Shown: positions 1-16,295 of the stretch, one piece after another
Numbering within the stretch: the first letter of the stretch is position 1
How the letters are laid out: the number at the start of each line of letters is the position of its first letter
From: Burkholderia multivorans ATCC BAA-247
Lineage (GTDB): Bacteria; Pseudomonadota; Gammaproteobacteria; Burkholderiales; Burkholderiaceae
Direction: 5' to 3'
Length of the DNA: 64,000 nt
NCBI RefSeq assembly: GCF_000959525.1
Contig: NZ_CP009830.1
Location: forward strand, 124,001-188,000
The notes under the pieces: model-generated
The model's input: only the letters and a program-made list of their open reading frames with translations
What the model was told of the DNA's origin: nothing
The model's database searches: none
Position numbers and translations under genes: made by a program

Positions 1-239
1 GCCTTGAGCTTGCCGTAGTCGGTCGGTCCGTCCATCAGCACCTTGATGCCGCTCGCCTGCGTGAACGGCTGCGCCCAGTCCTTCTGCTGCGACGATTGGG
101 TCGTCCCGCCCCAGCTCGTGAACACGATCGGGTCCGCAGCGACCGCCGGTGCGGCGCAAAGAACGGCCAACGGTGCGATACAGGCAAGCTGCGATGCCAG
201 ACGCGGTGCTGCGAAACGCGGGATGCTTCTGCTGCTCAT
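1..239 (-). CDS. ABC transporter periplasmic substrate-binding protein, N-terminal part
   Basis: The gene is cut by the left window edge; about 79 N-terminal residues are visible. It starts MSSRS, followed by a basic stretch and a hydrophobic segment ending AAPAVAADP, which is a good Sec signal peptide with likely cleavage after AVAA. The mature start PIVFTSWGGTTQ is typical of family 1 (spermidine/putrescine, PotD-like) binding proteins, where a strand ending in W-G-G leads into the first lobe. The protein would therefore sit in the periplasm and deliver a small cationic or organic ligand to an inner-membrane permease encoded further left. The ligand cannot be told from this fragment. Confidence 0.7.
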   Translation of the reverse strand, partial: MSSRSIPRFAAPRLASQLACIAPLAVLCAAPAVAADPIVFTSWGGTTQSSQQKDWAQPFTQASGIKVLMDGPTDYGKLK

Positions 240-386: not shown

Positions 387-1349
387 TTACGCGGCAGCCA
401 GCGGCTGGACCGTACCGGCCTCCGTGTCGCCGACGTAGATTCCATATGCGTCCTGCCTGCGTTCGCGCACGTAGCGCTCGAGCATCGAGCGCACGGCGGT
501 ATCGGCGATTTCGTCCCAAGGAACTTGCCACAGCGGCACGATGCGAATACTGCTGTCGAACCACGGCGAACCGGTGGGCATCACGCGGCCGCGGTAATAG
601 ATGTGCACGCCCGGCTCGCGGCCGCCGGCCGATTCGAAGACGGCGAACAGGAAGTCGAGATGCGCGTTGAGCCCGAGCTTCGTCAGCACACCGCGCAGGC
701 TCGCCGCGTCGCTCGCCGGTTCGAGCCGGCTGCCGGTCGGCAGGCGCAGGCCGTGCGGCGTATCGACGAGCACCAGCCCGTCGCGATGTTCGAGAATCGC
801 GCCCACCCGTGCGCACCCCGCCGCGGACAACGCGTCCTGCGACAGGCTGAAGTTCACGTATGCGCCGCGGCAATAGCCGAGCGGCGACGCGCTCGTCTGC
901 GCGAAGTCGACCACGCGTCCGATCAGAATGATGTGGTCCCCCGCGTCGACCACGTCGTGCGTCACGCAGTCGAAGCTCGCGGCCGCATCCCGGATCACCG
1001 GGGCACCCGTTTTGCGCGTATCCCACGGTACTCGGGCGAATTTGTCCTGTGCTTTCGAGGCGAACACGCCGGACACGTCGGCCTGGTTCTCCGCCAGCAC
1101 GCTCACCGCAAAACGCTGCGTGGCCGAGAACACCGGATGGCTCGACGCCGTCTTCGAGATGCACACGAGAATCAAGGGCGGATCGAGCGACACCGACGTG
1201 AACGAGTTGGCGGTGAAGCCGCGCGGCGAACCGTCGGGCTGGATCGTCGTGACGACCGTCACGCCGGTGACGAATGCACCGAGGGCGCGGCGAAAGCCGG
1301 ACGTGTCGAATGGCTGCTGCTCGATCGGCTCGGTTATCGACTCGGTCAT
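387..1349 (-). CDS. Flavin reductase-domain protein with C-terminal NUDIX-like domain (copy 1)
   Basis: The protein has 320 residues. The first 165 or so are a flavin reductase domain of the HpaC/RutF type: FRRALGAFVTGVTVVTT at the start, then GFTANSFTSVSLDPPLILVCI, and the DAGDHIILIGRV strand. Such proteins make reduced FMN with NAD(P)H for a partner monooxygenase. The remaining 150 residues look like a NUDIX fold, but the catalytic Nudix box is not recognisable. It is a paralogue of the protein at 4153-5088 and diverges from the rest of the cluster. Two ATGGNATRCCAT palindromes lie 39-92 bp upstream of its start, so it is probably controlled by the adjacent GntR protein. The likely partner is the luciferase-like monooxygenase at 5100-6137; that pairing is inferred. 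Confidence 0.85.
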   Translation of the reverse strand: MTESITEPIEQQPFDTSGFRRALGAFVTGVTVVTTIQPDGSPRGFTANSFTSVSLDPPLILVCISKTASSHPVFSATQRFAVSVLAENQADVSGVFASKAQDKFARVPWDTRKTGAPVIRDAAASFDCVTHDVVDAGDHIILIGRVVDFAQTSASPLGYCRGAYVNFSLSQDALSAAGCARVGAILEHRDGLVLVDTPHGLRLPTGSRLEPASDAASLRGVLTKLGLNAHLDFLFAVFESAGGREPGVHIYYRGRVMPTGSPWFDSSIRIVPLWQVPWDEIADTAVRSMLERYVRERRQDAYGIYVGDTEAGTVQPLAAA

Positions 1350-1387
1350 GGCGTCCTCCCGGGATGGCTGTGCTGCTTGATGAGATT

Positions 1388-1441
1388 ATGGTATGCCATC
1401 TTATGGGCTACAACAATGGACGCTGTATTATGGAATACCAT
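1388..1441. promoter_or_regulatory. Pair of GntR-type operators (ATGGNATRCCAT)
   Basis: Two 12-bp near-palindromes, ATGGTATGCCAT at 1388-1399 and ATGGAATACCAT at 1430-1441, lie 42 bp apart (about four helix turns) upstream of the flavin reductase gene that starts at 1349. The same word occurs in front of the GntR gene (2285-2296) and in the divergent region at 2698-2724. TGGTATACCA-like palindromes are usual targets of FCD-type GntR regulators; assignment to the local GntR protein is an inference. Confidence 0.75.
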
Positions 1442-1464
1442 GAGTCGAATCGGCACACAAAACA

Positions 1465-1496
1465 AAAGGCCGCCGGCAAGTTTGCCGACGGCCTTT
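1465..1496 (-). terminator. Rho-independent terminator of the gntR gene
   Basis: A hairpin with arms 1465-1479 and 1482-1496 (AAAGGCCGCCGGCAA against TTGCCGACGGCCTTT, one internal mismatch) is followed, in minus-strand reading, by TTTTGTTTTG. It lies 40 bp beyond the gntR stop codon and separates that gene from the flavin reductase operators. Confidence 0.8.
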
Positions 1497-1537
1497 CGTG
1501 GTGAATCGCGCGTATCGACGCCCGCGCCGGCGTGTCG

Positions 1538-2227
1538 TCAACGGTCGTCGACGGCCTCGTCCTGCTGCTGCGCGAGCGCGGACTGCGCCAGCTCGGAAAC
1601 GCGCTTGATGTGCGCCGCCGACGCCGCCGCGGCCGCGTCGCCATCGCGCCGCTCGATCGCGTCGAGCAGGCGGTTCATCTCCGTATTGGAATCGCTGCCG
1701 CGCCCCGGCATTGCGATGGTCAGCGCACGCAGCCGATTGATGCGCGCATTCAGCGTCTTAACGACCGTCAGCGACACGTGTTTGCCCGCCGCCTCGAACA
1801 GCGCTTCATAGAAGCGTTCGGTGTATTCGAGCACGCGCGGCAGATCTTCCTTCTCGAACGCATCCTCGATCACCGCGCGAATTTCGCGCAGTCGCTGCAC
1901 GACTTCGGGCGTCGCGCCCTCCGCGCACGCGCGCGCCGCATTGGCTTCGAGCAGCCCGCGCAGTTCGTAAATCTCGCCGACCTGCCCCGGATCGAGCCGC
2001 GCGACCACCGGCCCCTGCCGCGACACGGTCTCGACCAGCCCTTCCGTCTCGAGATGCCGCAGCACCTCGCGCACCACCGTGCGACTCACGCCGAGTTCGT
2101 CGCAGAGCGTGCGTTCGACGAGCCGCGCGCCCGGTCGGAAATAACCCTGCACGATCGCGCCACGCAGCTTGTCGAGCGTCAGTTCGCGCAGGGTCTTGGC
2201 ATTGCGGTCGATTTTCAGGTCTTGCAT
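1538..2227 (-). CDS. GntR family transcriptional regulator (FCD/FadR subgroup)
   Basis: The 229-residue protein has an N-terminal winged helix (TLRELTLDKLRGAIVQGYFRPG, then LCDELGVSRTVVREVLRHLETEGLV) and a C-terminal all-helical FCD domain beginning near GQVGEIYELRGLLEANAA. The FCD domain usually binds an organic-acid effector with a metal. I place the start at 2227 (MQDLKIDRN). An in-frame ATG at 2296 also exists, but it would put a 12-bp operator palindrome (2285-2296) inside the coding region. That operator is probably the site of autoregulation. Same-type operators border the flanking catabolic genes, so this is the likely local repressor, released by a pathway substrate or intermediate. 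Confidence 0.88.
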   Translation of the reverse strand: MQDLKIDRNAKTLRELTLDKLRGAIVQGYFRPGARLVERTLCDELGVSRTVVREVLRHLETEGLVETVSRQGPVVARLDPGQVGEIYELRGLLEANAARACAEGATPEVVQRLREIRAVIEDAFEKEDLPRVLEYTERFYEALFEAAGKHVSLTVVKTLNARINRLRALTIAMPGRGSDSNTEMNRLLDAIERRDGDAAAAASAAHIKRVSELAQSALAQQQDEAVDDR

Positions 2228-2284
2228 GGACGGCACTCTGGAAACGAAATGGGCCTGCCGCCAGCCCAAAAGGCGGCGGCCGAC

Positions 2285-2296
2285 ATGGAATGCCAT
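2285..2296. promoter_or_regulatory. GntR-type operator in front of gntR
   Basis: ATGGAATGCCAT matches the ATGGNATRCCAT word found four more times in this regulon. It lies 58 bp upstream of the chosen gntR start at 2227, which fits autoregulation and is the main reason for rejecting the longer gntR start at 2296. Confidence 0.7.
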
Positions 2297-2360
2297 ATTA
2301 TGACCTAACTGTCATCGAGCTTTCCATCCCGCCGGCAGCGTGCCCGGCGACGCCGCCGTT

Positions 2361-2651
2361 TCAGTCCTCCAGCCCCTCGACGATCGAGATCTGCGCGCGG
2401 CAATGTCCATCCCGCTTCGCCTTCGCCGTCTGGTATTCGGCCGAGTGATAACACGCGAGCGCGGCGTCCATATCGGGAAAGCGGATCACGACGTGGCGCT
2501 CGAACGCCTCGCCCTCGAGCGTCTGCGACGCGCCGCCGCGCGCGAGAAATACGGCGCCGAACTTCTTGAACGCCTGCGGCGCGAGATCCGTGTAGTCCTT
2601 GTACTTCACGGGATCCAGCACCTGCACGTGGGCAATCCAGTACGCACTCAT
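2361..2651 (-). CDS. DUF1330 family protein
   Basis: This 96-residue protein (MSAYWIAHVQVLDPVKYKDY near the start, HVVIRFPDMDAALACYHSAEYQ in the middle) has the sequence pattern of DUF1330. These are small dimeric ferredoxin-like-fold proteins often found beside oxygenase and catabolic genes; the biochemical role of the family is not established. It diverges from the operon starting at 2762 and shares with it a control region carrying two GntR-type operators (2698-2724), so it is likely co-regulated with the monooxygenase pathway. Confidence 0.85.
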   Translation of the reverse strand: MSAYWIAHVQVLDPVKYKDYTDLAPQAFKKFGAVFLARGGASQTLEGEAFERHVVIRFPDMDAALACYHSAEYQTAKAKRDGHCRAQISIVEGLED

Positions 2652-2697
2652 TTTTCACCTCCGCTTTCGCGCAATTTCGAGACACGGGTTAACACTC

Positions 2698-2724
2698 ATG
2701 GCATGCCGTAACATGGTATACCAC
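2698..2724. promoter_or_regulatory. Paired GntR-type operators in a divergent control region
   Basis: ATGGCATGCCGT (2698-2709) and ATGGTATACCAC (2713-2724) lie 15 bp apart between the DUF1330 gene (starts 2651, minus) and the amino-acid-synthesis-family gene (starts 2762, plus). Both differ from the perfect ATGGNATRCCAT palindrome only near the 3' end. One GntR dimer pair here could control both directions. Confidence 0.75.
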
Positions 2725-2761
2725 AATGAATCCGACAATCAACGCATGAAAGGAAGGTGCC

Positions 2762-3364
2762 ATGAGCCTGATTCGGAAATCCGTCCTCCACGTCGAAACG
2801 CTGTACGTGGATGGCGACAAGGTGGCTGCGAAACCGCTGAAGATGATCGGCGCGGCCGCGGTGATCAAGAACCCGTGGGTGGGCCGCGGATACGTCGAGG
2901 ACCTGTCGCCGGAGATCCGCAGGCTCGCGCCGCAACTGAGCGAACACCTGACGAAGCTGATCCTCGACGAAGCCGGTTCGGGCGAGGCCGTCGAAGCGTT
3001 CGGCAAGAGTGCGATCGTCGGTCTCGACGGCGAGATCGAGCACGCATCCGCGCTGATCCACACGCTGCATTTCGGCAATACGTATCGGACGGCCGTCGGC
3101 GCGAAGTCGTATCTCGCGTTCAACAACACGCGCGGCCCGGCCAACGCGCCGCTGCTGATTCCGATGATGGACAAGAACGACGAAGGCCGCCGTTCGCACT
3201 ACCTGACGCTCCAGTTTGCGATTCCGGACGCGCCGGCCGCCGACGAACTCGTCATTGCCCTCGGCGCGGCCACCGCCGGCCGGCCGCATCACCGCATCGG
3301 CGACCGCTACAAAGATCTCGCAGAGCTCGGAAATGACGTCAAGAACCCTGCCGCTGTCAAATAA
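2762..3364 (+). CDS. Amino acid synthesis family protein (AA_synth, DUF1185-like)
   Basis: This 200-residue protein (MSLIRKSVLHVETLYVDGDK; HTLHFGNTYRTAVGAKSYLAF; PLLIPMMDKNDEGRRSHYLTLQFAI; GRPHHRIGDRYKDLAEL) matches my memory of the amino acid synthesis protein family. Its true function is unproven; many genomes carry it next to flavin-dependent monooxygenases and amidases. A strong GGAAGG ribosome site precedes the ATG. It is the first gene of a seven-gene operon and overlaps the next gene by 32 bp, which points to coupled expression and a shared pathway. A role in hydrolysis or tautomerisation of a ring-derived intermediate would be speculation. Confidence 0.75.
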   Translation: MSLIRKSVLHVETLYVDGDKVAAKPLKMIGAAAVIKNPWVGRGYVEDLSPEIRRLAPQLSEHLTKLILDEAGSGEAVEAFGKSAIVGLDGEIEHASALIHTLHFGNTYRTAVGAKSYLAFNNTRGPANAPLLIPMMDKNDEGRRSHYLTLQFAIPDAPAADELVIALGAATAGRPHHRIGDRYKDLAELGNDVKNPAAVK

Positions 3365-4151
3365 GCGCGTCGCCCACTATCTCGACCAGGGCGCGGGCGA
3401 ACCGCTGGTGCTGATTCATGGGGTCGGCATGCAGGCGAGCGCGTGGTATCCGCAGATCGACGACCTGTCGCGCGACTTTCGCGTGATCTCCGTCGACATG
3501 CCGGGCCACGGGAGAAGCGATCCGCTCGACACCGGCGCCGAGCTGCCGCAGTTCGTGCAGTGGGCGGCAGAGTTCATCGAAGCGCTGAAGGTCGGCCCCG
3601 TCAACCTGGCCGGCCATTCGATGGGCTCGCTGATCGCGGCCGGCGTCGCCGTGACGCGACCGGATCTCGTCAAGCGCGTGGCAGTCCTGAACGGCGTGTA
3701 CCGCCGAACCGAGCAGGCGCGCGAAGCCGTGCTGCAACGCGCCGCCGAACTGCGGTCGGGCACCATCGACGTCGATACGCCGCTCAAGCGCTGGTTCAAC
3801 GCGGAAGAAGCGCAGCAGGCCGCCGCACGGAAGGTGCAATCGTGGCTGCAGTCGGTCGACCTCGTCGGTTATGCGACCGCGTACCACGCCTTCGCGAACG
3901 GCGACGAGGTGTATGCGGACGCCTGGCACCGGATCGCCTGCCCCGCCCTCGTGCTCACCGGCTCGGACGATCCGAATTCGACGCCCGAGATGGCGCGACA
4001 GATGGCGCAAGCCGCACAGGATGGCAAGGCCGTCGTGATCGAGAACGAGCGCCACATGGTCAACCTGACCGCGCCCGACACGGTCAATCGCGCGCTGCGT
4101 GCGTGGCTGCAGACCGTGCCGCAGGCGGAAACCCTGAAATCGGAAGTGTGA
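3333..4151 (+). CDS. Alpha/beta hydrolase (RutD-like position in the pathway)
   Basis: The 272-residue protein has the alpha/beta hydrolase core: oxyanion-hole motif LVLIHGVG at residues 26-33, nucleophile elbow GHSMG with Ser96, an acid in the TGSDDPNSTP segment and the base in NERHMVNL. I chose the ATG at 3333, preceded by GAGCTCGGA and followed by a normal hydrolase N-terminus. An in-frame upstream start would add 39 residues with no hydrolase character, all inside the preceding gene. In the Rut pathway the equivalent position is occupied by RutD, which hydrolyses an aminoacrylate-type product. The substrate here is unknown. Confidence 0.85.
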   Translation: MTSRTLPLSNKRVAHYLDQGAGEPLVLIHGVGMQASAWYPQIDDLSRDFRVISVDMPGHGRSDPLDTGAELPQFVQWAAEFIEALKVGPVNLAGHSMGSLIAAGVAVTRPDLVKRVAVLNGVYRRTEQAREAVLQRAAELRSGTIDVDTPLKRWFNAEEAQQAAARKVQSWLQSVDLVGYATAYHAFANGDEVYADAWHRIACPALVLTGSDDPNSTPEMARQMAQAAQDGKAVVIENERHMVNLTAPDTVNRALRAWLQTVPQAETLKSEV

Positions 4152-4152
4152 C

Positions 4153-5088
4153 ATGAGCCAAGCAATCAGCCAGGAAGCCTCGACGATCAACACCCGGGAG
4201 CTGCGCGATGCGTTCGGCGCGTTCATGACGGGCGTGACGATCGTCACGACTGCGCGCGACGATGGCCAGCCGCTCGGCTTCACCGCGAACTCGTTCTCGT
4301 CGGTGTCGCTGGATCCGGCACTGCTGCTCGTCAGCATCGCGAAGACGTCGAGCAATTTCCAGACGTTTTCCACGGCCGGCCACTTTGCGATCAACATCCT
4401 CGCGGAAGGGCAAACGGAGCTGTCGAACAGGTTCGCGCGCCCGAGCGAGAACCGCTTCGCGAACGTCGGCTGGCATCTGAGCGCACATCGTAATCCGCTG
4501 ATCGACGACGTCAGCGCGTGGTTCGACTGCACGACGCACGAGGTGATCGATGCGGGCGATCACGCAATCATCATCGGCAAGGTCGAGGCGTTTCATTCGG
4601 CAGGCTATGCGGGGCTCGGTTACTACCGCGGCGGGTATTTCACGCCGGCGAAGCTGTCGACCGAAGTCATTGCAGGCCCGAAGGTCGTCGTCAGCGCGAT
4701 CATCGCGCGCGACGACAAGGTGCTCATGATCCGCACCGCCGAGGGCAAGTGGACACTGCCCGCGAAGGAGATCGGCCGTGAAGGCGCCGACAAGGCGCTC
4801 GCCGAACTTTTCCGGCAATACCAGCCGGACGCATCGGCAAGCTTTATCTACTCGGTCTACAACAATACCGAGACACACTACCAGTACATCTCGTTCCTCT
4901 GCAGCGCACCGGACGAAGCGGCGGCCGCCGGCGAATTCGTGAGCCTCGACGATCTCGACGCGGACGCGTTCCAGGACAGCGCGCTCGCCAGCATGCTCGA
5001 ACGCTATCGCAAGGAGAGCCAGCTGAAGAGTTACGGCCTGTACTTCGGCGATCACAGCACCGGCACCGTCCGTCCGCTTCTTTCCTGA
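4153..5088 (+). CDS. Flavin reductase-domain protein with C-terminal NUDIX-like domain (copy 2)
   Basis: The 311-residue protein starts 1 bp after the hydrolase stop. Residues 1-165 form the flavin reductase domain (LRDAFGAFMTGVTIVTTA, GFTANSFSSVSLDPALLLVSI, DAGDHAIIIGKVEAF). From about residue 175 a NUDIX-like domain follows (VVVSAIIARDDKVLMIRT, then GKWTLPAKEIGREGADKAL). The expected GX5EX7REUXEEXGU box is degenerate, so nucleotide hydrolysis is doubtful. It probably supplies reduced flavin to the luciferase-like monooxygenase encoded directly downstream. The whole-length paralogue at 387-1349 shows that the two-domain arrangement is stable. Confidence 0.88.
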   Translation: MSQAISQEASTINTRELRDAFGAFMTGVTIVTTARDDGQPLGFTANSFSSVSLDPALLLVSIAKTSSNFQTFSTAGHFAINILAEGQTELSNRFARPSENRFANVGWHLSAHRNPLIDDVSAWFDCTTHEVIDAGDHAIIIGKVEAFHSAGYAGLGYYRGGYFTPAKLSTEVIAGPKVVVSAIIARDDKVLMIRTAEGKWTLPAKEIGREGADKALAELFRQYQPDASASFIYSVYNNTETHYQYISFLCSAPDEAAAAGEFVSLDDLDADAFQDSALASMLERYRKESQLKSYGLYFGDHSTGTVRPLLS

Positions 5089-5099
5089 AAGGTCCCATC

Positions 5100-6137
5100 A
5101 TGCGTTTTTCGCTTTTCGTTCACATGGAGCGCGTCTCCGACCAGACCAGCCAAAAGCAGCTGTACGACGAGATGGTCGAGCTGTGCCAGATCGCCGACCG
5201 CGGCGGCATGCACGCCGTCTGGACCGGCGAGCACCACGGCATGGATTTCACGATCGCGCCGAACCCGTTCATCAACCTCGCCGATCTCGCGAACAAGACG
5301 AAGCGCGTACGGCTCGGCACGGGCACGGTCGTCGCGCCGTTCTGGCATCCGATCAAGCTCGCCGGCGAAGCCGCGATGACGGACATCATCTCGGGCGGGC
5401 GCCTCGAGCTCGGCATCGCGCGCGGCGCCTACTCGTTCGAATATGAGCGCCTGATGCCGGGTCTCGACGCGTGGAGCGCAGGCCAGCGCATGCGCGAGCT
5501 GATTCCGGCCGTGAAGAAGCTGTGGGAAGGCAACTACGCGCACGACGGCGAATTCTGGAAGTTCCCGTCGACCACATCGTCGCCGCTGCCGCTGCAGCAA
5601 CCGCATCCGCCGATCTGGGTCGCCGCGCGCGATCCGAACAGCCACGAGTTCGCGGTGGCCAACGGCTGCAACGTGCAGGTCACACCGCTGCATCTCGGCG
5701 ACGACGAAGTCGAGAAGCTCGTCGGCCATTTCAACGCCGCGTGTGCGAAGTACAGCGACGTGCCGCGTCCGCAGATCATGCTGCTGCGTCACACCTATGT
5801 CGCGAGCAACGAGGACGACGCGCAGCGAGCCGCCGACGAAATCAACGTGTTCTACAACTACTTCGGCGCGTGGTTCAAGAACGAACGTCCGGTCAGTCGC
5901 GGGATGATCCAGCCGCTGAGCCGCGAGGAAATCGCCGCGCATCCGTTCTACACGCCCGAAGCGATGCGCCGGAACAACGTGATCGGCACGCCGGCGGAAG
6001 TGATCGAACGTCTGAAGACCTATGAGGCGCTCGGCTTCGACGAGTACTCGTTCTGGATCGACACGGGCATGCCGTTCGAACGCAAGAAGGCGTCGCTCGA
6101 GCGGATGATCCGCGACGTGATGCCGGCGTTCCGGTAA
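5100..6137 (+). CDS. LLM class flavin-dependent monooxygenase (luciferase-like, RutA-like role)
   Basis: The 345-residue protein is a luciferase-like TIM-barrel monooxygenase: MRFSLFVHME at the first strand, AVWTGEHHG at the second, RVRLGTGTVVAPFWHP, the GGRLELGIARGAY loop, and HPPIWVAARD. Members use reduced FMN and oxygen to oxidise substrates and depend on a separate flavin reductase, here encoded immediately upstream with an 11-bp gap. Operon position and neighbours (hydrolase, aldehyde dehydrogenase, permease) suggest oxidative opening or dealkylation of an imported nitrogen-containing compound. This is by analogy with RutA, not shown by the sequence itself. Confidence 0.88.
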   Translation: MRFSLFVHMERVSDQTSQKQLYDEMVELCQIADRGGMHAVWTGEHHGMDFTIAPNPFINLADLANKTKRVRLGTGTVVAPFWHPIKLAGEAAMTDIISGGRLELGIARGAYSFEYERLMPGLDAWSAGQRMRELIPAVKKLWEGNYAHDGEFWKFPSTTSSPLPLQQPHPPIWVAARDPNSHEFAVANGCNVQVTPLHLGDDEVEKLVGHFNAACAKYSDVPRPQIMLLRHTYVASNEDDAQRAADEINVFYNYFGAWFKNERPVSRGMIQPLSREEIAAHPFYTPEAMRRNNVIGTPAEVIERLKTYEALGFDEYSFWIDTGMPFERKKASLERMIRDVMPAFR

Positions 6138-6149
6138 GGGGACGATGTC

Positions 6150-7619
6150 ATGAATGCACATTTTCAGCTGTATATCGACGGGCAGTTCGAGCCCGGCGCC
6201 GCCACCTTCGGCAGCATCGACCCGGCAACCGGCGCCGTGTGGGCGCAGATGCCGGAAGCCCGCACGGACGAAGTGAATCGCGCGGTCGCGGCGGCCCGCC
6301 GTGCACTGACCGATCGCGCCTGGGCAGGCCTGACCGCGTCGGCGCGCGGCAAACTGCTGTACCGGCTCGCGGACCTCGTCGAACAGGCTGCACCGCGGCT
6401 CGCCGAAATCGAAACGAAAGACACCGGCAAGATCATCCGCGAAACGTCGAGCCAGATCGCATACGTTGCCGAGTATTACCGCTACTACGCCGGCATCGCC
6501 GACAAGCTCGAGGGCAGCAGCATCCCCGTCGACAAGCCCGACATGCAGGTATGGCTCGAGCGGCAGCCGGTCGGCGTGGTCGCCGCGATCGTGCCGTGGA
6601 ACAGCCAGCTGTTCCTGTCCGCGGTCAAGCTCGGCCCCGCACTCGCCGCGGGCTGCACCGTCGTGCTGAAGGCATCCGAGGAAGCACCGGGACCGCTGCT
6701 CGAGTTCGCGCGCATCGTGCACGAGGCCGGCTTCCCGCCCGGTGTCGTCAACGTCGTCACCGGCTTCGGCCCGGAATGCGGTGCGGTGCTGAGCAGCCAT
6801 CCCGATGTGGACAAGGTCGCGTTCACCGGCGGCCCCGAGACCGCGCGCCACATCGTGCGCAATACGGCCGATAACCTCGCGAAGGTGTCGCTCGAACTCG
6901 GCGGCAAGTCGCCGTTCATCGTGTTCGCCGATACCGACATCCAGAGCGCCGTGAATGCGCAGGTTGCGGCCATCTTCGCAGCGAGCGGCCAGAGCTGCGT
7001 CGCGGGTTCGCGCCTGCTGATCGAGGCTTCGGTCAAGGATCGATTCCTCGCGATGCTCGTGGAACGCGTATCGCGGATTCGCATCGGTTCCCCCGGCGAG
7101 CGGGAAACCGAATACGGCCCGCTGTGTACCGAGCGACAGCTTCGCCACATCGAGACGGTCGTCGAGCGCTCGGTGCGTCAGGGCGCGACCGTGCTCGCCG
7201 GCGGAAAGAAGCTGGCACGCGACGGGTATTACTACGCGCCGACGATCCTCGACTGCACCGGCGTCGCGCACGCCGACAGCATCACGACCGAATTGTTCGG
7301 GCCGGTGCTGTCGGTCGACACGTTCGAATCCGAGCAGGAAGCGATCGACAAGGCGAACGGCACCGCATATGGCCTCGCGGCCGGCATCTTCACGACCAAT
7401 CTCACGCGGGCTCACCGCGTGTCGAAGCGCGTGCGCACCGGCATCGTGTGGATCAACACGTATCGGGCCGTGTCGCCGCTCGTGCCGTTCGGCGGCTTCG
7501 GGCTATCCGGACACGGCCGCGAAGGCGGGCTGAGCGCCGCGCTCGAATACACGACCACGAAGTCCGTATGGCTGCGCACGTCGGACGATCCGATCGGCGA
7601 CCCGTTCGTGATGCGCTGA
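6150..7619 (+). CDS. NAD(P)-dependent aldehyde dehydrogenase
   Basis: The 489-residue protein has the complete ALDH superfamily signature: cofactor segment IVPWNSQLF near residue 147, general base Glu249 in SLELGGKSPF, catalytic Cys283 in ASGQSCVAGSR, and the C-terminal PFGGFGLSGHGREGG loop. It is of normal family length. It follows the monooxygenase with a 12-bp gap and would oxidise an aldehyde (for example a semialdehyde) released by the upstream hydrolase or monooxygenase to an acid. The exact substrate is not deducible. Confidence 0.9.
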   Translation: MNAHFQLYIDGQFEPGAATFGSIDPATGAVWAQMPEARTDEVNRAVAAARRALTDRAWAGLTASARGKLLYRLADLVEQAAPRLAEIETKDTGKIIRETSSQIAYVAEYYRYYAGIADKLEGSSIPVDKPDMQVWLERQPVGVVAAIVPWNSQLFLSAVKLGPALAAGCTVVLKASEEAPGPLLEFARIVHEAGFPPGVVNVVTGFGPECGAVLSSHPDVDKVAFTGGPETARHIVRNTADNLAKVSLELGGKSPFIVFADTDIQSAVNAQVAAIFAASGQSCVAGSRLLIEASVKDRFLAMLVERVSRIRIGSPGERETEYGPLCTERQLRHIETVVERSVRQGATVLAGGKKLARDGYYYAPTILDCTGVAHADSITTELFGPVLSVDTFESEQEAIDKANGTAYGLAAGIFTTNLTRAHRVSKRVRTGIVWINTYRAVSPLVPFGGFGLSGHGREGGLSAALEYTTTKSVWLRTSDDPIGDPFVMR

Positions 7620-7717
7620 GCGGCGATCCGATCGCCTGCCGTATCGATTCATAAGCGACGGAGACCAGGCTGCGCCCGCGCGGCGCCGCTTGGTCCGGCA
7701 ATAACGATGGAGACAGC

Positions 7718-9130
7718 ATGACAAAGCAGGACAGCGACGGCGGCGTTCTCGCCATCGAAAGCAACTCGATCGAATATGTTCCGTCGGAGGCCCGCCACGG
7801 CAAGCCGGCCGATCTCTTCACCCTGTGGTTCTGCACGAACGTCGCACCGCTGGCCGTGATCTCGGGCGCCACGTCGGTGCTGGTGTTTCATCTCGACCTG
7901 GTCAGCGCGATTCTCGCGATCGTGGCCGGGCAATTCTTCGGCGCGATCTTTCACGCGCTCACTTCCGCGCAAGGGCCGCTCGTCGGCGTACCGCAGATGA
8001 TCCAGAGCCGCGCCCAGTTCGGCCGCTACGGCTCGCTGCTCGTGGTCGGGTTCACCACGCTGATCTACCTCGGCTTCTTCGTATCGAACATCATTCTGGC
8101 GGGCAAAACGCTGCACACCGCCATGCCCGCGATACCCGTACCCGCCGCGACCGTCGTCGGTGCGGTGCTTGCGACGCTGGTGGGCGTGATCGGCTGCCAC
8201 TTCATTCATCGCTTCAACAAGATCGGTGCGTGGTTCATGGGCGGCGCGCTGCTGATCGGCATCGCGCTGATGGCGCCGGGGCTCGACGCGCAGATCTTCG
8301 AGCGAGGGCATTTCGATTCCACGAACTGGTTCGCGATGTTCGGGCTGTGCGCGATCTGGCAGATCAGCTTCGCGCCCTATACGTCCGACTATTCTCGCTA
8401 TCTGCCGGCCTCCGCCGGATTCGGGAAGACGTTTGCGTATACCTATTTCGGTACATCGCTAGGCACGATCTTCGCGTTCCTGTTCGGTGTGCTCGCAGTC
8501 AGCACCGGACATTCGTCCGACGCGATGCAGGCCGTCCGCGAGCAGACCGGCGCGTTCGGCTACGTGCTGATCCTCCTGTTTCTCGTCAACATCATCGGCC
8601 ACAACGGAATGAATCTGTACGGCGCAGTGCTGTCGTTCATCACCGCCGCGCAGACGTTCCGCCCGCACTGGGTGCCGGGGCGCAAGGTGCGCGTCGCCGT
8701 GTCGGCGGTGCTGCTGGTGGCGTCCACCGCGATCGCCCTGTGGGCGTCGAGCAACTTCATCGCGATCTTTCTGAACGCGATCTTCGCGCTGCGCATCGTG
8801 CTCGCGCCATGGATCGCGATCAACCTGATCGACTTCTACCTCGTCAACAACCGGCACTACCGCGTCGCGGAGATCATCAGCAGCAATGGCGGCATGTACG
8901 GCGCGTTCAACGCCAAGACCACCGCGATCTACGTGTTCGGGATTGCGGTGCAGGTTCCGTTCATGCAAGAGAGCTTCTTCCGCGGCCCGTGGGCGTCGAT
9001 TCTGGGTGGCGTCGACGTCTCGTGGATGGTCGGCCTCGTCGTCACCGCGCTGGTGTGCTACCTGTTCGCGTCGCGGGACGGCTCGCGTTCGCGGAGCCGG
9101 TGTCCGGCCGGCGCCGGCGCTCTGGATTAA
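7718..9130 (+). CDS. NCS1/cytosine-permease-type transporter
   Basis: The 470-residue protein has about twelve hydrophobic segments and the pattern of the purine-cytosine permease (NCS1) family: FTLWFCTNVAPLAV in the first helix, GQFFGAIFHALTSAQGPLVGVPQMIQSRAQFG in the loop between helices 2 and 3, and SFAPYTSDYSRYLP in the middle. The family carries nucleobases, hydantoins and related ring compounds into the cell with protons or sodium. It follows the aldehyde dehydrogenase after 98 bp and probably imports the substrate of this pathway. The Rut pathway uses an unrelated NCS2 permease (RutG) in the same role. Confidence 0.88.
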   Translation: MTKQDSDGGVLAIESNSIEYVPSEARHGKPADLFTLWFCTNVAPLAVISGATSVLVFHLDLVSAILAIVAGQFFGAIFHALTSAQGPLVGVPQMIQSRAQFGRYGSLLVVGFTTLIYLGFFVSNIILAGKTLHTAMPAIPVPAATVVGAVLATLVGVIGCHFIHRFNKIGAWFMGGALLIGIALMAPGLDAQIFERGHFDSTNWFAMFGLCAIWQISFAPYTSDYSRYLPASAGFGKTFAYTYFGTSLGTIFAFLFGVLAVSTGHSSDAMQAVREQTGAFGYVLILLFLVNIIGHNGMNLYGAVLSFITAAQTFRPHWVPGRKVRVAVSAVLLVASTAIALWASSNFIAIFLNAIFALRIVLAPWIAINLIDFYLVNNRHYRVAEIISSNGGMYGAFNAKTTAIYVFGIAVQVPFMQESFFRGPWASILGGVDVSWMVGLVVTALVCYLFASRDGSRSRSRCPAGAGALD

Positions 9131-9145
9131 CAATGGAGATCGATC

Positions 9146-9535
9146 ATGAATGAAGACGAGGCGCTGTTTCAGAAAGGCTTGCCGATCCGCCGTGAAGTGC
9201 TCGGCCCCGAATACGTCGATGCATCGATGGAAAAGGCGGACGCCTTCATGATGGCGTTCCAGCGCGCCACCACCGCATGGGCGTGGGGATGGGCATGGGG
9301 CGACGACACGCTCGACCGCAAAACGCGCAGTCTGCTCAACCTCGCGATGCTGACTGCCGGCGGCCATACGAACGAACTCAAGCTGCACGTGAAGGGGGCG
9401 CTCAACAACGGCGTAAGCGTCGACGAAATCAAGGCGACATTGCTGCACGCGACCGCTTATTCGGGCATTCCGCACGGGCTCAGCGCGTTCAAGGCCGCAC
9501 ACGAGGTGCTGGTGTCCGAAGGGGCATTGAAATAA
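9146..9535 (+). CDS. Carboxymuconolactone decarboxylase family protein (PcaC-like)
   Basis: The 129-residue protein matches the PcaC/CMD fold: DRKTRSLLNLAMLTAGGHTNELKLHVKGALNNG and the following ATLLHATAYSGIPHGLSAF helix pair. It lacks the CxxC of AhpD-type peroxidases, so a decarboxylase/isomerase-like or ligand-binding role is more likely than peroxidase activity. It is the last gene of the operon, 15 bp after the permease, and may act on a late ring-fission intermediate. Confidence 0.85.
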   Translation: MNEDEALFQKGLPIRREVLGPEYVDASMEKADAFMMAFQRATTAWAWGWAWGDDTLDRKTRSLLNLAMLTAGGHTNELKLHVKGALNNGVSVDEIKATLLHATAYSGIPHGLSAFKAAHEVLVSEGALK

Positions 9536-10858: not shown

Positions 10859-11719
10859 TCACTCGGGCGCAGCCTGCTCGTCATGTCGCACGAGCGGAAC
10901 GGTGAGCCGATCGATCAGCGCACGCGTCTGCGGTCGAACGCCGCGCCACCATGCGAACGCTTCGGCCGCCTGCTCGACGAGCATCCCGACACCATCCGCG
11001 ATGCCCTGCACACCGGCGCTGCGCGCGAGCTGCAGGAACGGCGTCAAGCCCTTGCCGTAGGCGAGTTCGTAGGCGCTGCCGCTCGCGCTGAATACGCTGG
11101 GCGGAACCGGCGGCAGCTGCCCGGTCAGGCTTGCCGAAGTCGCGTTCACGACGAGGTCGAAGCGTCCCATCGATTCGAGGTCCGCATAGCTGCACGCACG
11201 CAGCGCGCTACCTGCGCCTGCCTGCTCGACCAGCGCTTGCGCCTTGTCCGGATGTCGGTTGACGATGACGAGTTCGGCGGGGCGCGCGCCGATAAACGGC
11301 AGCAACGCGCCGCGCACGGCGCCGCCTGCGCCGAGAATGAGTACGCGCTTGCCGGCCATCGGCTGATGCAGATTGACTTCGATGTCGCGCACGAGGCCGA
11401 CGCCATCGAAGTTCTCGGCGACGACGCGACCGTTCTCGAACTTCATCGCGTTCACGGCGCCCGCGAGCGTCGCGCGTTCGCTGCGTTCGTCGGCCATCGC
11501 AAACGCTCTCAGCTTGAAGGGCGCGGTGACGTTCATGCCCTTGCCACCGGCCGCGATGAAGGCTGTGACCGTGTCGACGAACGCGCCGTCCGGTTCCAGC
11601 GGCGCCTCCATCGCGACATACGCGATGTCCTGCCCGGTCTCCTCGGCGAACAGACGGTGGATCAGCGGAGACTTCGTGTGCCCGATCGGATTGCCGATTA
11701 CCGCATACTGGTCGCTCAT
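10859..11719 (-). CDS. aroE: Shikimate dehydrogenase-like protein (AroE family), altered substrate site
   Basis: The 286-residue protein is AroE-like over its whole length: GNPIGHTKSPLIH at 9-21, GKGMNVTAPFK at 59-69 with Lys69, GAVN ending at Asn90, NFDGVG at 103-108, the nucleotide loop GAGGAVRG from 130, and ADGVGMLVEQAA near the end. AroE enzymes reduce 3-dehydroshikimate with NADPH. Relative to my memory of the E. coli enzyme, several substrate-contact positions differ: Ser14 is Thr15, the AVNT threonine is Ala, and the NTDG threonine is Phe104. A relaxed or different substrate is therefore likely. It is the last gene of a catabolic-looking operon, overlapping the CoA-transferase gene by 1 bp, so it is probably not the housekeeping copy. 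Confidence 0.8.
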   Translation of the reverse strand: MSDQYAVIGNPIGHTKSPLIHRLFAEETGQDIAYVAMEAPLEPDGAFVDTVTAFIAAGGKGMNVTAPFKLRAFAMADERSERATLAGAVNAMKFENGRVVAENFDGVGLVRDIEVNLHQPMAGKRVLILGAGGAVRGALLPFIGARPAELVIVNRHPDKAQALVEQAGAGSALRACSYADLESMGRFDLVVNATSASLTGQLPPVPPSVFSASGSAYELAYGKGLTPFLQLARSAGVQGIADGVGMLVEQAAEAFAWWRGVRPQTRALIDRLTVPLVRHDEQAAPE

Positions 11720-12939
11720 CACGCGCTCCTTTTCGAGAACAGCACGCCGTCGGTTTGCATCGCGTCGATTTCCGCTGCACTGAAGCCGAGCGATTGCGCG
11801 ACCTCCACGTTGTGCTGACCGAGGTCCGGGCCGACTTCGCGAATCGACGTATCGCAATCGGAAAAACGGAACGGCAGGTTCGGCAGACGCAGCGTGCCGA
11901 AGCGCGGATGCGCCTGTTCGATCACCATGCCGCGCGCGACGATTTGCGGATCGTTGACGACCTCGTCGATGCGCTGCACCTTCGCGCAAGGAACGTCGAC
12001 CTCGTCCAGCAGCGCCAGAACGTCGGCCACCGAGCGGCCGGCCACCCACGGCTTCACCACGGCAAGAATGGCTTCGCGATGGGCGTTGCGGCCGTTCAGG
12101 TCGTGAAAGCGCGTGTCGGTTCCAAAACCGGCGGGGCCGCCATGCTGCTCGACGACCGCCGCGAACCGCTTCCACGCATCGTCGACTTGCGCGGCGATGA
12201 CGAGGTCGCCGTCGGCGGCGCGGAAGACGCCGTACAGCGTGGACGTCGGCATGTCGTGGCCGGTCTGCTCGGGAACGACGCCCTGCATCGTGTAGCACTG
12301 GACGGCATATTCGTGCATCGACACCAGCGTGTCGTACAGCGCCATGTCGATATGCTGCCCGCGCCCGCTCGCTACGCGGCCGAGCAGCGCCGCGTTGATC
12401 GCGGCGACCGCGTGAATGCCGGTGTACATGTCGCCGAGCGAAATGCGCATGAGCGGCGGCGGCTCGCCCGGATTGCCGATCATCTGCATGATGCCGCTCT
12501 TCGCTTCGGCGATCAGGCCGAAGCCCGCACGATGCGCGTCGGGCCCCGTGTGGCCGTACGCCGAGATCGAGCAGTAGACGAGCCGCGGATTGCGCGCCGA
12601 CAACGCCGCGTAGCCGAGACCGAGCTTGTCGAGCGCACCGGGACGATAGTTCTCGATAAACACGTCGGCCGAGTCGCACAGGCGTTGCATGAACGTCTTG
12701 CCGCGCGGGTCCTTCATGTCGACGCTGACACCGCGCTTGCCCATGTTGAGCTGCAGAAAATAGGCGCTTTGCTGATCGTCCAGGATCGTCGCGTGCCGGC
12801 GCCCGGCGTCGCCGCCGCCGGGGCGCTCGACCTTGATGACTTCTGCGCCGAGCGCGGCGAGGCAGCGGCCGACATACGGGCCGGCAAGAAAGTGGCTGTA
12901 ATCGACGACGCGAATGCCTTCGAGGGGACGGGCCTGCAT
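11719..12939 (-). CDS. Class III CoA-transferase (CaiB/BaiF family)
   Basis: The 406-residue protein opens with PLEGIRVVDYSHFLAGPYVGRCLAALGAEVIKVERPGGGD, the family III CoA-transferase signature, and carries SADVFIENYRPGALDKLG. These enzymes move CoA between organic acids through a conserved aspartate. It overlaps the MaoC-like gene upstream and the aroE-like gene downstream by 1 bp each, showing a tightly coupled operon. With a MaoC-type hydratase next to it, activation of an unsaturated dicarboxylic acid to its CoA ester and hydration is a reasonable but unproven scheme. Confidence 0.88.
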   Translation of the reverse strand: MQARPLEGIRVVDYSHFLAGPYVGRCLAALGAEVIKVERPGGGDAGRRHATILDDQQSAYFLQLNMGKRGVSVDMKDPRGKTFMQRLCDSADVFIENYRPGALDKLGLGYAALSARNPRLVYCSISAYGHTGPDAHRAGFGLIAEAKSGIMQMIGNPGEPPPLMRISLGDMYTGIHAVAAINAALLGRVASGRGQHIDMALYDTLVSMHEYAVQCYTMQGVVPEQTGHDMPTSTLYGVFRAADGDLVIAAQVDDAWKRFAAVVEQHGGPAGFGTDTRFHDLNGRNAHREAILAVVKPWVAGRSVADVLALLDEVDVPCAKVQRIDEVVNDPQIVARGMVIEQAHPRFGTLRLPNLPFRFSDCDTSIREVGPDLGQHNVEVAQSLGFSAAEIDAMQTDGVLFSKRSA

Positions 12940-13400
12940 CAGTACGCTCCCGGACGACGCGGAATCATCAGACGATGCTCGCCGCGCTGGACGACCTGGC
13001 CGTCCTGGTTGATCAGTTCCGACGGCAAAACGACGATGCCCCAGTCGGGCCTGCTCTTGCTGGCGCGCATCGCGCCGACGCGGAACTTGACGTGCAGTAC
13101 GTCGTTCACCTTGATCGGCAGCAGGAAATCCCAGGTCCAGCCGAGCGACATGCCGGGTACGAAGCGATAGTCGCTTTGCGTCTTCAGGCCGTCCGCGACG
13201 GACAAGCCGAACAAGCCATGCGCGACGATGCAGCCGAAGTGGCTCGCGTTCGCGTAGTCCTCATCGACGTGCACGGGCGTGTGATCGCCCGTGAGATCGG
13301 CATAGGCGAGAATGCGTTGTTTCGTGACCGTATACGTCGGGCTGATGCATTCGTCGCCTTCCTGCGCATCGTCCCAGTATTTTTCGATGATGCGGCTCAT
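12939..13400 (-). CDS. MaoC-like (R)-specific enoyl-CoA hydratase family protein
   Basis: The 153-residue protein (start MSRIIEKYWDDAQEGDE) is a hot-dog-fold MaoC dehydratase: the hydratase motif reads YADLTGDHTPVHVDEDYA with the catalytic Asp and His, followed by CIVAHGLFGLSVADGL. An in-frame start 113 codons upstream would run through the VOC gene and is rejected. It sits between the CoA-transferase and a VOC protein in one operon and would hydrate or dehydrate a CoA ester made by the transferase. Confidence 0.87.
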   Translation of the reverse strand: MSRIIEKYWDDAQEGDECISPTYTVTKQRILAYADLTGDHTPVHVDEDYANASHFGCIVAHGLFGLSVADGLKTQSDYRFVPGMSLGWTWDFLLPIKVNDVLHVKFRVGAMRASKSRPDWGIVVLPSELINQDGQVVQRGEHRLMIPRRPGAY

Positions 13401-13402
13401 GC

Positions 13403-13795
13403 TCACGCCTCCGCGCGCGGATCGATCGCCAGCGCCTGTGCGACGCACGTGGCCGGTTTCGCCTGAATGAGTTCGATCGCGAGTCCGTCGGGCAGGCGCA
13501 GCCAGTTGCGTCCCTGCGGCATTTCGGTCACGCCGAATGCCTGCGCCGCCGCGATGGCCGCGTCGAGCTCTTCGCACATCACGCCGAGGTGCGCGAGCCG
13601 ACCCTCCGGTCCGTCGTAATGCGGCTCGCTGATGAATTGCAGACCGCCGAGCGTCCAGTATTGACGCGGCGCTTCCCGGCTGCCGTCGACTTCGCGCATG
13701 GTCATGCCGAGCACTTCCTCGAAGAAGCGGATATGCCAATGGATGTCCTTCACCCGGATGGCGACGTGCTCGAGATAGGCTTTCGCGGCGCTCAT
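13403..13795 (-). CDS. VOC (glyoxalase/dioxygenase superfamily) protein
   Basis: The 130-residue protein has one beta-alpha-beta-beta-beta module pair typical of VOC metal proteins: LEHVAIRVKDIHWHIRFFEEVLGM at the start, then REAPRQYWTLGGLQFISEP and HLGVMCEELDAAIAAAQAFG. His8-type and glutamate metal ligands are plausible but not certain. It overlaps the ketopantoate-reductase-like gene by 4 bp (ATGA) and ends 2 bp before the MaoC-like gene. Possible roles include epimerase, lyase or glyoxalase for a pathway intermediate. Confidence 0.82.
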   Translation of the reverse strand: MSAAKAYLEHVAIRVKDIHWHIRFFEEVLGMTMREVDGSREAPRQYWTLGGLQFISEPHYDGPEGRLAHLGVMCEELDAAIAAAQAFGVTEMPQGRNWLRLPDGLAIELIQAKPATCVAQALAIDPRAEA

Positions 13796-14742
13796 GCCGA
13801 GACCTCCTCTTTCTGGCGATCGATCATGGCGCGTTCAATCCCCTTGATGCAGGCGACAAGCGTCGCATTGACGGGCGTCGGCACGCCGAGCCGTTCGCCC
13901 CAGCGCACCACGGCGCCGTTGATGAAGTCGATTTCGGTGATCGACGCTTTCTCGAGGCTTTGCAGCATCGACGTCTTGAACGCGGCCGGAAGGCCTTCGG
14001 CGGCCATGTTCCACGCATCTTCCGCTGCGGCGATGGACAGCCTGACACCGGCGGCTTTGGCCGCGGCCATTGCTTCTTCGATCGCCGCAAGCGCCGTCGC
14101 CTTGAGGACGGGCTCGTCGTAAAGCTGACCGTAGGTCAGGCGCGTGATGCCGGTGATCGCGCCGGTCGCGACATTGATCAGCAGCTTGTCCCACATCGTG
14201 CCGAGGATGTTGTCGCTGACGCGCGTGGTCAAACCTGCGCCGTTGAACGCGTCCGCGACCGCTTGCACACGGGCCGTGATCCGGCCGTCGAGTTCGCCGA
14301 CGATCGTGAGCTTGCCCGCGACGCCGCTCTGAATCTGGCCCGGCGCGCGCAATACGCCGCCCACGTAGGTTTTGCCCGCGAGCACGCGCTCTCGTCCGAC
14401 GATTTCGGCGAGCACGTCTTCATGACCGAGGCCGTTTTGCAGCGACAGAACGACGGTCTCCGGCCCGACGAGCGCGAGCGCGCCGCGCATCGCCGCATCG
14501 GTATGGAACGACTTGACCAGCACGATCACGAGATCGACCGTGCCGACTTCGGCGGGATCCATCGTCGCGCGAACCTTGACGCGCCGCGTGCCGCGCTCGT
14601 CGTCGATCTGCAGCCCGTCGCGCGACATGGCCGCGACATGCGCGGCAAACCGGTCGACGAGCCATGTCTCGTGACCGGCTTCGGTCAGCGTGGCACCGAT
14701 GGCGCAGCCCAGCGCGCCGGCGCCCAAAAATGCGATCTTCAT
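13792..14742 (-). CDS. Ketopantoate reductase family (ApbA/PanE-like) dehydrogenase
   Basis: The 316-residue protein starts MKIAFLGAGALGCAIGATL, a Rossmann nucleotide loop, and continues through VLVKSFHTDAAM, LQNGLGHEDVLAE and the C-terminal helical domain with DKLLINVATGAITGITR, the PanE/ApbA architecture. I chose the ATG at 14742, directly before the Rossmann strand; the longer in-frame start adds 29 unrelated residues. In this operon it may reduce a 2-oxoacid other than ketopantoate. It is the first gene of the five-gene operon and lies downstream of a LysR-type palindrome. Confidence 0.85.
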   Translation of the reverse strand: MKIAFLGAGALGCAIGATLTEAGHETWLVDRFAAHVAAMSRDGLQIDDERGTRRVKVRATMDPAEVGTVDLVIVLVKSFHTDAAMRGALALVGPETVVLSLQNGLGHEDVLAEIVGRERVLAGKTYVGGVLRAPGQIQSGVAGKLTIVGELDGRITARVQAVADAFNGAGLTTRVSDNILGTMWDKLLINVATGAITGITRLTYGQLYDEPVLKATALAAIEEAMAAAKAAGVRLSIAAAEDAWNMAAEGLPAAFKTSMLQSLEKASITEIDFINGAVVRWGERLGVPTPVNATLVACIKGIERAMIDRQKEEVSA

Positions 14743-14805
14743 CAACGTCTCCTTGAATGGAGACCACGATACGGCGCGCGACACATGTCGGCAATGCAAT
14801 GAATT

Positions 14806-14830
14806 CAATGGCGCCATTGCGGATCGCAAT
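14806..14830. promoter_or_regulatory. Overlapping LysR-type palindromes upstream of the ketopantoate-reductase-like operon
   Basis: CAATGGCGCCATTG (14806-14819) overlaps a second palindrome, ATTGCGGATCGCAAT (14816-14830), whose ATTGC-N5-GCAAT form fits the LysR T-N11-A pattern. The first copy recurs with one change in front of the LysR gene at 10735-10748. The pair lies 64-88 bp upstream of the start at 14742, the usual place for a LysR activator. Confidence 0.6.
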
Positions 14831-14914
14831 ATTGAGTCGACACGGACATAGCACTGCCGTAGCGCGCACGCCGTTTTGCGAGCCGCTGGCGCTCGCCGCC
14901 ACGCCGCCCAAAAA

Positions 14915-14947
14915 GCGACAAGCCCGGCGCGAAGCCGGGCTTGTCGC
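14915..14947 (-). terminator. Strong Rho-independent terminator of the tcu operon
   Basis: A perfect 14-bp stem (GCGACAAGCCCGGC at 14915-14928 against 14934-14947) with a 5-nt loop is followed in minus-strand reading by TTTTT. It sits 25 bp past the tcuC stop and isolates the tcu genes from the operon that starts at 14742. Confidence 0.92.
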
Positions 14948-14972
14948 GTGTTCGAACCTGACGTCCCAATGT

Positions 14973-16295
14973 CTATCCCGCCGACGAAGCGGCCGACTCG
15001 CCACTGTCCGCGCGCCGCCGGTACAGCGCCAGCGTCGCGCCGAGCCCGCAGAGCGCGGCGAAACTCAGCCAGTAGCCCGGCGCTGCCTTGTCATGCAGCG
15101 CCTGGATCAGATACGTCGACACGGCCGGCGTAAACCCGCCGAACAAGGCGGTCGCCAGACTGAACGCCAGCGAGAACCCGGCGACGCGTACTTCGACCGG
15201 CATCACTTCCGTCAGCGCGGCGACCATCGCGCCGTTATACATGCCGAAAAAGAACGAGAACCACAGCAGCACGATCAGCATGCGCGCGAAGCTCGGCGCA
15301 TCGGCGAGCCAGAACAGCGCCGGATAGGCCGTGAAGATCGCGAGCACGGAAATCGCGACGAGCAGCGGCTTGCGGCCGATGCGGTCCGAGATCGCGCCGC
15401 CGATCGGCAGCCAGACGAAATTCGACGCGGCCACGAGCAGCGTCACCATCAGGCTGTCCGACGTGGACAGCTTCAGCACCGATCTGCCGAAGGTCGGCGT
15501 ATAGACGGTGATGAGATAAAACGTCGTGGTCGTCATCGCTGTCAGCAGCATGCCGCCGACGACGGTCCGCCAGTTGCCGAGCAGCATCGCGAAGATCTCG
15601 CGTGCCTGCGGATGGTGCCGCCGCGCTTGGAACGCCGCGGTCTCCTGCAGCGAGCGCCGCAGCAAGAACAGAAACGGCACGATCGCACAGCCGATGAAAA
15701 ACGGCACGCGCCAGCCCCATGCGCCGATCTGCTGCGCCGACAGCCACTGGTTCAGCCCGTAACCGATGGCCGCCGCCATCACGATCGCGACCTGCTGGCT
15801 CGCCGATTGCCAGCTCGTGTAAAAACCCTTGTTGCCGGGCGTGGCCATTTCCGCGAGATAAACCGACACGCCGCCGAGCTCGGCCCCCGCGGAGAATCCT
15901 TGCAGCAGCCGCCCGAGCAGCACCAGCGCCGGCGCGAGCAGGCCGATGCTCGCGTAGCCCGGCACGCACGCGATCAGGATGGTGCCGCTCGCCATGATCG
16001 AGAGCGTGACGATCAGGCCGGTGCGCCGCCCGACCTTGTCGATATACGCGCCGAGAAAGATCGCGCCGAGCGGACGCATCAGGAACCCGGCGCCGAATAC
16101 CGCGAACGTGAGCATCAGCGACGCGAACTCGCTGTCCGACGGAAAAAAGATCTTCGAGATCGATGTCGCATAGAAGCCGAACAGAAAGAAATCGAACTGT
16201 TCGATGAAATTGCCGCTGGTCACGCGCAGCACGGCGGCGGCCCGCGTCATCGGCGAAACGCCGGACGTCGCGGCAATGGGTTCGGTACGGCTCAT
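14973..16295 (-). CDS. tcuC: MFS transporter, TcuC-like citrate/tricarballylate-proton symporter
   Basis: The 440-residue protein has twelve predicted membrane segments and the metabolite:H+ symporter pattern: [26 protein letters not shown] at helix 1, [24 protein letters not shown] between helices 2 and 3, and [24 protein letters not shown] in helix 4. It is the last gene of the tcuA-tcuB-tcuC group and ends in a strong terminator. In Salmonella TcuC brings tricarballylate into the cell; the same or a related tricarboxylate is expected here from the context. Confidence 0.85.

Follow-up and report, generated by a model that had tools for sequence, protein, structure and literature searches.

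Which compound is consumed by the enzymes encoded at the left end of a 64,000-nucleotide stretch of Burkholderia multivorans ATCC BAA-247 (contig NZ_CP009830.1, positions 124,001 to 188,000; the whole stretch is called the window here)? The gene set in question spans positions 387..9535, and an original prediction made from the sequence took it for an undescribed pathway resembling the Rut system for uracil, most likely acting on a hydantoin, pyrimidine or lactam. Comparison with relatives points elsewhere: the set is very probably a trigonelline (N-methylnicotinate) catabolic operon, tgn, and trigonelline would be its substrate in this strain. Trigonelline is a common plant compound.

A tblastn search of plasmid records matched the luciferase-like monooxygenase (LLM) of the window at 81.7% identity to a protein of Acinetobacter sp. 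PK01 annotated as TgnB, the oxygenase component of a flavin-dependent trigonelline monooxygenase. The PK01 genes run in the order DUF1330 (minus strand), GntR (minus strand), AA_synth, hydrolase, tgnA, tgnB, tgnC, cytosine permease, a hypothetical gene, succinate semialdehyde dehydrogenase (SSADH) and a carboxymuconolactone decarboxylase (CMD) family gene; the gene at the tgnD position is annotated merely as an alpha/beta hydrolase, and the set adjoins sarcosine-oxidase-like, folate C1 and ammonium-transport genes. Gene order at the Acinetobacter baylyi DSM 14961 locus is the same as in the window and in PK01, and the A. baylyi reductase matches over its full length, from a gene adjacent to the LLM gene. 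The pathway can therefore no longer be called undescribed, since the same set stands in the same order at the A. baylyi tgn locus and tgnA-tgnB-tgnC are already annotated in PK01. All nine genes originally named are intact open reading frames in the order given, each scoring above the curated Pfam cut-off for its family; a DUF1330 gene had been missed. The features are as follows, with identities given to the A. baylyi locus.

1-239, minus strand: 5' end of an ABC transporter substrate-binding protein gene, the rest lying beyond the window edge (contig C1, locus L087); position transferred from an annotated B. multivorans record
387-1349, minus strand: second flavin reductase (FRed2) of a second tgn-like operon type, with a probably degenerate NUDIX domain; Pfam Flavin_Reduct
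1389-1398, no strand: predicted operator 1 5' of FRed2, TGGTATGCCA; pattern search
1431-1440, no strand: predicted operator 2 5' of FRed2, TGGAATACCA, 42 bp from operator 1; pattern search
1538-2227, minus strand: GntR/FCD regulator; Pfam
2286-2295, no strand: predicted operator 5' of the GntR gene, TGGAATGCCA; pattern search
2361-2651, minus strand: DUF1330 protein, accessory; Pfam E 4.7e-34
2714-2723, no strand: predicted operator 48 bp 5' of the tgn operon, TGGTATACCA; pattern search
2762-3364, plus strand: AA_synth (DUF1185), the TgnF counterpart; Pfam, 83% identity
3333-4151, plus strand: alpha/beta hydrolase, assigned as TgnD by position and overlapping the AA_synth end; Pfam, 65% identity
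4153-5088, plus strand: flavin reductase with a probably degenerate NUDIX domain, the TgnA counterpart; Pfam Flavin_Reduct, 64% identity
5100-6137, plus strand: LLM oxygenase, the TgnB counterpart; Pfam Bac_luciferase, 82% identity, tree
6150-7619, plus strand: aldehyde dehydrogenase, the TgnC counterpart; Pfam Aldedh, 76% identity
7718-9130, plus strand: NCS1-type permease, likely the trigonelline importer; Pfam Transp_cyt_pur, 60% identity
9146-9535, plus strand: CMD-family protein, accessory; Pfam, 46% identity

The AA_synth gene at 2762 is the sole one of its family in the genome, and the CMD protein stays below the PcaC equivalog cut-off (120 bits vs 155.7). Within the species, two B. multivorans records encode an LLM protein 100% identical to the one in the window, and replicon NZ_CP020399.1 carries an identical gene set in identical order.

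In a maximum-likelihood tree of 115 LLM rows, the window protein falls inside an 86-row clade (support 100/100) together with the proteins of A. baylyi and Sinorhizobium meliloti pSymA; Burkholderia and Acinetobacter rows form a 33-row sub-clade within it (support 100/98). A trigonelline degradation cluster, tgnABCDEF, and its pathway intermediates were reportedly described in A. baylyi by Perchat et al. (PNAS, 2018). Excerpts from three further papers state that an S. meliloti strain lacking pSymA fails to grow when trigonelline is the sole carbon source (PMC4207669), that TgnA and TgnB open the pyridinium ring (PMC8269262), and that a DUF1185 homologue, TgnF, stimulates TgnE-dependent oxidation of succinate semialdehyde, an effect not seen with HcdD, the DUF1185 protein studied in the same work (PMC7913881). 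Taken together, the synteny and identity with A. baylyi and PK01, the LLM tree and the published roles of TgnA, TgnB and TgnF give every core gene a tgn counterpart. AA_synth, formerly regarded as an odd addition, corresponds to the TgnF of that last excerpt. The close homologues of the LLM protein are trigonelline oxygenases, whose substrate is a pyridinium and not a hydantoin, pyrimidine or lactam. The original prediction had named a close LLM homologue of proven, unrelated substrate as the finding that would count against it; such a homologue exists, and its substrate is still a nitrogen heterocycle. The more general expectation fits tgn: an N-heterocycle is imported, a two-component flavin oxygenase opens its ring, and dehydrogenase and hydrolase steps follow.

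What then remains of the proposed kinship with Rut? An LLM oxygenase, a flavin reductase, an alpha/beta hydrolase and a nucleobase-type permease do share the logic of that pathway, and AA_synth has a chorismate-mutase-like fold according to an excerpt of PMC2954203. Membership was scored directly and rejected: the two reductases reached 102.8 and 84.7 bits on the RutF model (cut-off 254.75) and the hydrolase 70 bits on RutD (cut-off 238.5). AA_synth matched no NCBIfam model, RutC included, at E 0.001, and the RutA model was not among the best 25 of 30 families for the LLM protein. With RutF and RutD so far below their cut-offs, descent from Rut is not supported, and with trigonelline enzymes as the close homologues, a Rut-like route acting on uracil, hydantoin or lactam is extremely improbable. 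We give equally little weight to a pyridine-type degradation. The Arthrobacter pyr cluster combines a two-component flavin oxygenase, direct ring cleavage, an amidohydrolase and a succinate semialdehyde dehydrogenase. Its chemical logic is the same, but synteny and identity favour tgn, the comparison with pyr being one of described enzyme functions.

The association of these genes recurs well beyond Acinetobacter. We compared 86 related loci, comprising the best 80 of at least 566 from a genome scan and six picked by hand from plasmid records; they are not independent, as many are close kin and one of the six (L002) comes from the window's own species. By blastp labels, LLM and aldehyde dehydrogenase were found in all 86, AA_synth in 84, the hydrolase in 82, the main-type reductase in 81 and GntR in 80; the NCS1 permease (28), the CMD gene (30) and an SSADH of at least 50% identity (30) were rarer, and DUF1330 genes occur in most (labels in 49 and 14 of 86). 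By tblastn, AA_synth, hydrolase and reductase all lie 5' of the LLM gene in 81/86 loci, an association far beyond chance. Among the other five, L046 and L076 are contigs starting too near the LLM gene, and L020, L028 and L029 are without the reductase, L029 also without the hydrolase.

A shared palindrome accompanies the operon. The pattern TGGNATNCCA has four sites in the window vs 0.26 expected, with 0/100 shuffles reaching four. Two of them (1389 and 1431) precede the second reductase, and one each precedes the GntR gene (2286) and AA_synth (2714). This count was not blind, and the other loci serve as the test. Genome-wide there are 19 sites, four of them within this 1.3 kb, and a reversed control pattern gives 10. 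In 78 of 84 related loci the exact palindrome lies at most 250 bases 5' of AA_synth, 77 times at a distance of 35-70 bases; as background, 43/6363 other 250-base tiles contain a site. The exact form is missing at six loci: four (L010, which is A. baylyi, L011, L063 and L068) carry the one-mismatch form TTGTATACCA, L017 carries TAGTATACCA, and L078 has no recognisable form before AA_synth. We infer that the GntR protein binds the TGGNATNCCA sites and is likely a repressor of both transcripts. The literature matches listed for TGGTATACCA were all on unrelated subjects.

Could this be a tgn-related operon in which the oxygenase has come to act on a different N-methylpyridinium or pyridine, such as N-methylnicotinamide, homarine or nicotinate, with the later enzymes kept? 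The family does diversify, as Burkholderiaceae hold tgn-like operon clades with diverged LLM proteins (~62% and ~44% mutual identity), and the NCS1 permease is found at a minority of loci. Against this, the window LLM lies within the A. baylyi and S. meliloti clade, with 82% full-length identity to the former and with the same neighbours and operator. For homarine, an excerpt of PMC8269262 argues that TgnAB action is unlikely because of steric hindrance, and a literature search on homarine genes returned nothing on point. We consider such a shift very unlikely, and trigonelline remains the preferred substrate.

On this basis the following route is proposed. Trigonelline would enter through the NCS1 permease (7718) and probably also through the ABC transporter at the window edge, whose permeases are 66-67% and whose ATPase is 60% identical to the transporter within the S. 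meliloti tgn operon. TgnA (4153) would supply reduced flavin, with which TgnB (5100) and O2 would cleave the pyridinium ring directly; TgnC (6150) would oxidise the ring-opened lactol or aldehyde, and hydrolysis by TgnD (3333) would lead to formate, methylamine, CO2 and succinate semialdehyde. Succinate would be made by an unlinked TgnE-type dehydrogenase aided by TgnF (2762). The putative GntR repressor, presumably acting on the TGGNATNCCA palindromes, would control tgn, its own gene, and FRed2 together with the ABC transporter.

Several points weigh against assigning the cluster to trigonelline. The SSADH (TgnE) gene is absent from the window cluster. For the methylamine branch, no type III glutamine synthetase scores above cut-off in the genome (best 238.6 vs 469.6 bits), and the homologue of the PK01 sarcosine-oxidase-like protein is 38% identical, no closer. 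The CMD and GntR proteins are no more than 46% and 43% identical to those of A. baylyi, whose locus has the one-mismatch palindrome only; the locus compared is that of DSM 14961, and the pathway was worked out in strain ADP1. The palindrome pattern was itself chosen after TGGTATACCA had been noticed in the window and near the L015 genes. Finally, the reaction chemistry is drawn from second-hand passages and general background. As to the first point, the low number of related loci with an SSADH (30/86 at the identity given above) means that TgnE linkage does not strictly define tgn. Unlinked homologues exist in the genome: the best is 62% identical to the PK01 SSADH, and an SSADH encoded at C2:2309798 is 88.7% identical to the tgn-linked SSADH of Paraburkholderia sprentiae. 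At 33925-35352 on the minus strand the window encodes a further SSADH-like aldehyde dehydrogenase, with 45% identity to the SSADH of PK01.

The reductases had been described as NUDIX-fused, and this appears to hold at the level of the fold only. In a profile comparison the C-terminus hit 3rh7 (E 1.6e-29) as well as NUDIX proteins of solved structure, 3cng being the best of these (E 3.1e-8). Pfam gave no NUDIX match for any of 37 reductase members at E 0.1, and a canonical Nudix-box pattern occurs in 0/116 reductases. The domain is probably a degenerate, non-catalytic NUDIX-like one. In the reductase of p-hydroxyphenylacetate hydroxylase a C-terminal domain senses the substrate, and by analogy we guess that this one may do likewise. 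The reductase at 4153..5088 matches 3rh7 over its full length, and that structure, deposited as a hypothetical oxidoreductase, shares 310/311 residues with the tgnA-position reductase of S. meliloti (alignment read by eye); a TgnA-type structure therefore seems already to have been solved.

The second reductase shares 40% identity with the one encoded at 4153, but 69-83% with reductases of Burkholderiaceae whose genes neighbour an LLM2-type gene or lie in a remnant operon. It belongs to a second operon type, ordered GntR, AA_synth, hydrolase, reductase, LLM (~62% identical to TgnB), aldehyde dehydrogenase, usually NIPSNAP, and then an ABC transporter, and complete in L125, L132 and L133. The window GntR is 86% identical to the GntR heading the complete operon of Paraburkholderia caribensis (L125). 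In Aquabacterium (L124) the operon directly follows glnT-glxBCD-type genes, presumably for methylamine assimilation. In two Mesorhizobium plasmids (L122 and L123, at 10.2-12.0 kb of the locus) hydrolase and reductase form one fused gene of ~1.8 kb annotated as an alpha/beta fold hydrolase, and in Acidiphilium multivorum pACMV1 (L126) the operon is broken by several insertion sequences, with no annotated LLM gene and the permease split in two. The literature searched held no description of this operon. The paired sites before FRed2 are 42 bases apart, and pairs spaced 41-43 bases recur in the second-type operons or remnants L125, L127, L128, L132 and L133; this spacing was not seen in L122, L123, L124 and L126.

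Searching 398 genomes of the family with the second-type LLM (E 1e-80) gave 88 places in 71 genomes. By our own count the second type accounts for 27 of these places (82-100%), the TgnB type for 32 (60-63%) and a third type for 29 (43-46%). In four genomes (G292, G322, G327 and G361) the TgnB and second types share a contig in opposite orientation. The window retains the second-type GntR, reductase and ABC transporter alongside all first-type tgn enzymes; P. sprentiae and Caballeronia Lep1P3 retain the second-type GntR, hydrolase, reductase and ABC transporter. In Burkholderia sp. H160 (L029) the first operon has lost hydrolase and reductase, and the second-type pair alongside is the only one at the locus; in Caballeronia pedi (L028) the first-type reductase is lost and one of the second type is present; Caballeronia arvi (L020) is without the first-type reductase, with none seen in its 18.7 kb. 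Within these locus regions, what remains in relatives suggests that the second reductase may serve TgnB. Third-type operons (L129, L130 and L131; LLM 43-46% identical to the second type) consist of AA_synth, reductase, aldehyde dehydrogenase, LLM, hydrolase and NIPSNAP, and have no palindrome near them (L129 one site at 573; L130 and L131 none). The L129 operon is accompanied by a PucR-type regulator and by an ABC transporter of the glycine-betaine type (OpuAC). The substrate of this type may be another pyridinium betaine.

A wider scheme would join these observations, and as a whole it is tentative and rather doubtful. The locus would be a functioning mosaic put together from two ancestral operons for trigonelline, both run by one GntR and its TGGNATNCCA sites; the second-type reductase, and in relatives the hydrolase, could replace TgnA and TgnD; TgnF, CMD and DUF1330 or NIPSNAP would assist steps that are regarded as spontaneous (opening of the lactol, hydrolysis of the enamine and decarboxylation of a formylsuccinate intermediate); and operons of the second and third types would act on other N-methylpyridinium betaines.

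Past the cluster, the minus strand at 10859-18961 (positions partly from L002) encodes shikimate-dehydrogenase-like, CoA-transferase, MaoC, VOC and 2-dehydropantoate reductase-like proteins, followed by an MFS gene and tcuB/tcuA (tricarballylate).

In summary, the locus is very probably a known catabolic cluster, and its remaining interest is the two-operon mosaic and the shared predicted operator. A false new pathway is removed, and the Burkholderia genes gain names and a testable substrate. The recurrence of the palindrome, together with leftover parts of a second operon under shared putative control sites, is a small new observation; the palindrome could serve as an inexpensive marker of tgn regulons throughout the Proteobacteria, and it leads us to predict a second importer as well as a second reductase exchangeable with the first.

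Set beside known systems, the window has the oxygenase, reductase, hydrolase and permease logic of the Rut uracil pathway, but its members go unrecognised by Rut models, and ring and products differ. With the S. meliloti pSymA region (L003) it shares GntR, AA_synth, hydrolase, reductase, LLM (74% identity), aldehyde dehydrogenase and a related ABC transporter; the S. meliloti operon differs in having NIPSNAP, the ABC transporter and SSADH after the aldehyde dehydrogenase, with no NCS1 permease or CMD gene seen within its 21-kb locus. The second tgn-like operon of Paraburkholderia, Caballeronia, Mesorhizobium and Aquabacterium (L122-L125, L132 and L133) has the same GntR, AA_synth, hydrolase, reductase, LLM, aldehyde dehydrogenase, ABC transporter and palindrome, and it is the type to which FRed2, the GntR gene and the ABC transporter of the window belong, although its LLM is ~62% identical to TgnB. 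A. baylyi tgn has the same succession of DUF1330 and GntR on the minus strand, AA_synth, hydrolase, reductase, LLM, aldehyde dehydrogenase, NCS1 permease and then CMD; it places a porin and SSADH between permease and CMD, where the window has neither, whereas the window has a GntR of another subtype (43%) and adds, behind operators of the same kind, the second reductase and an ABC transporter.

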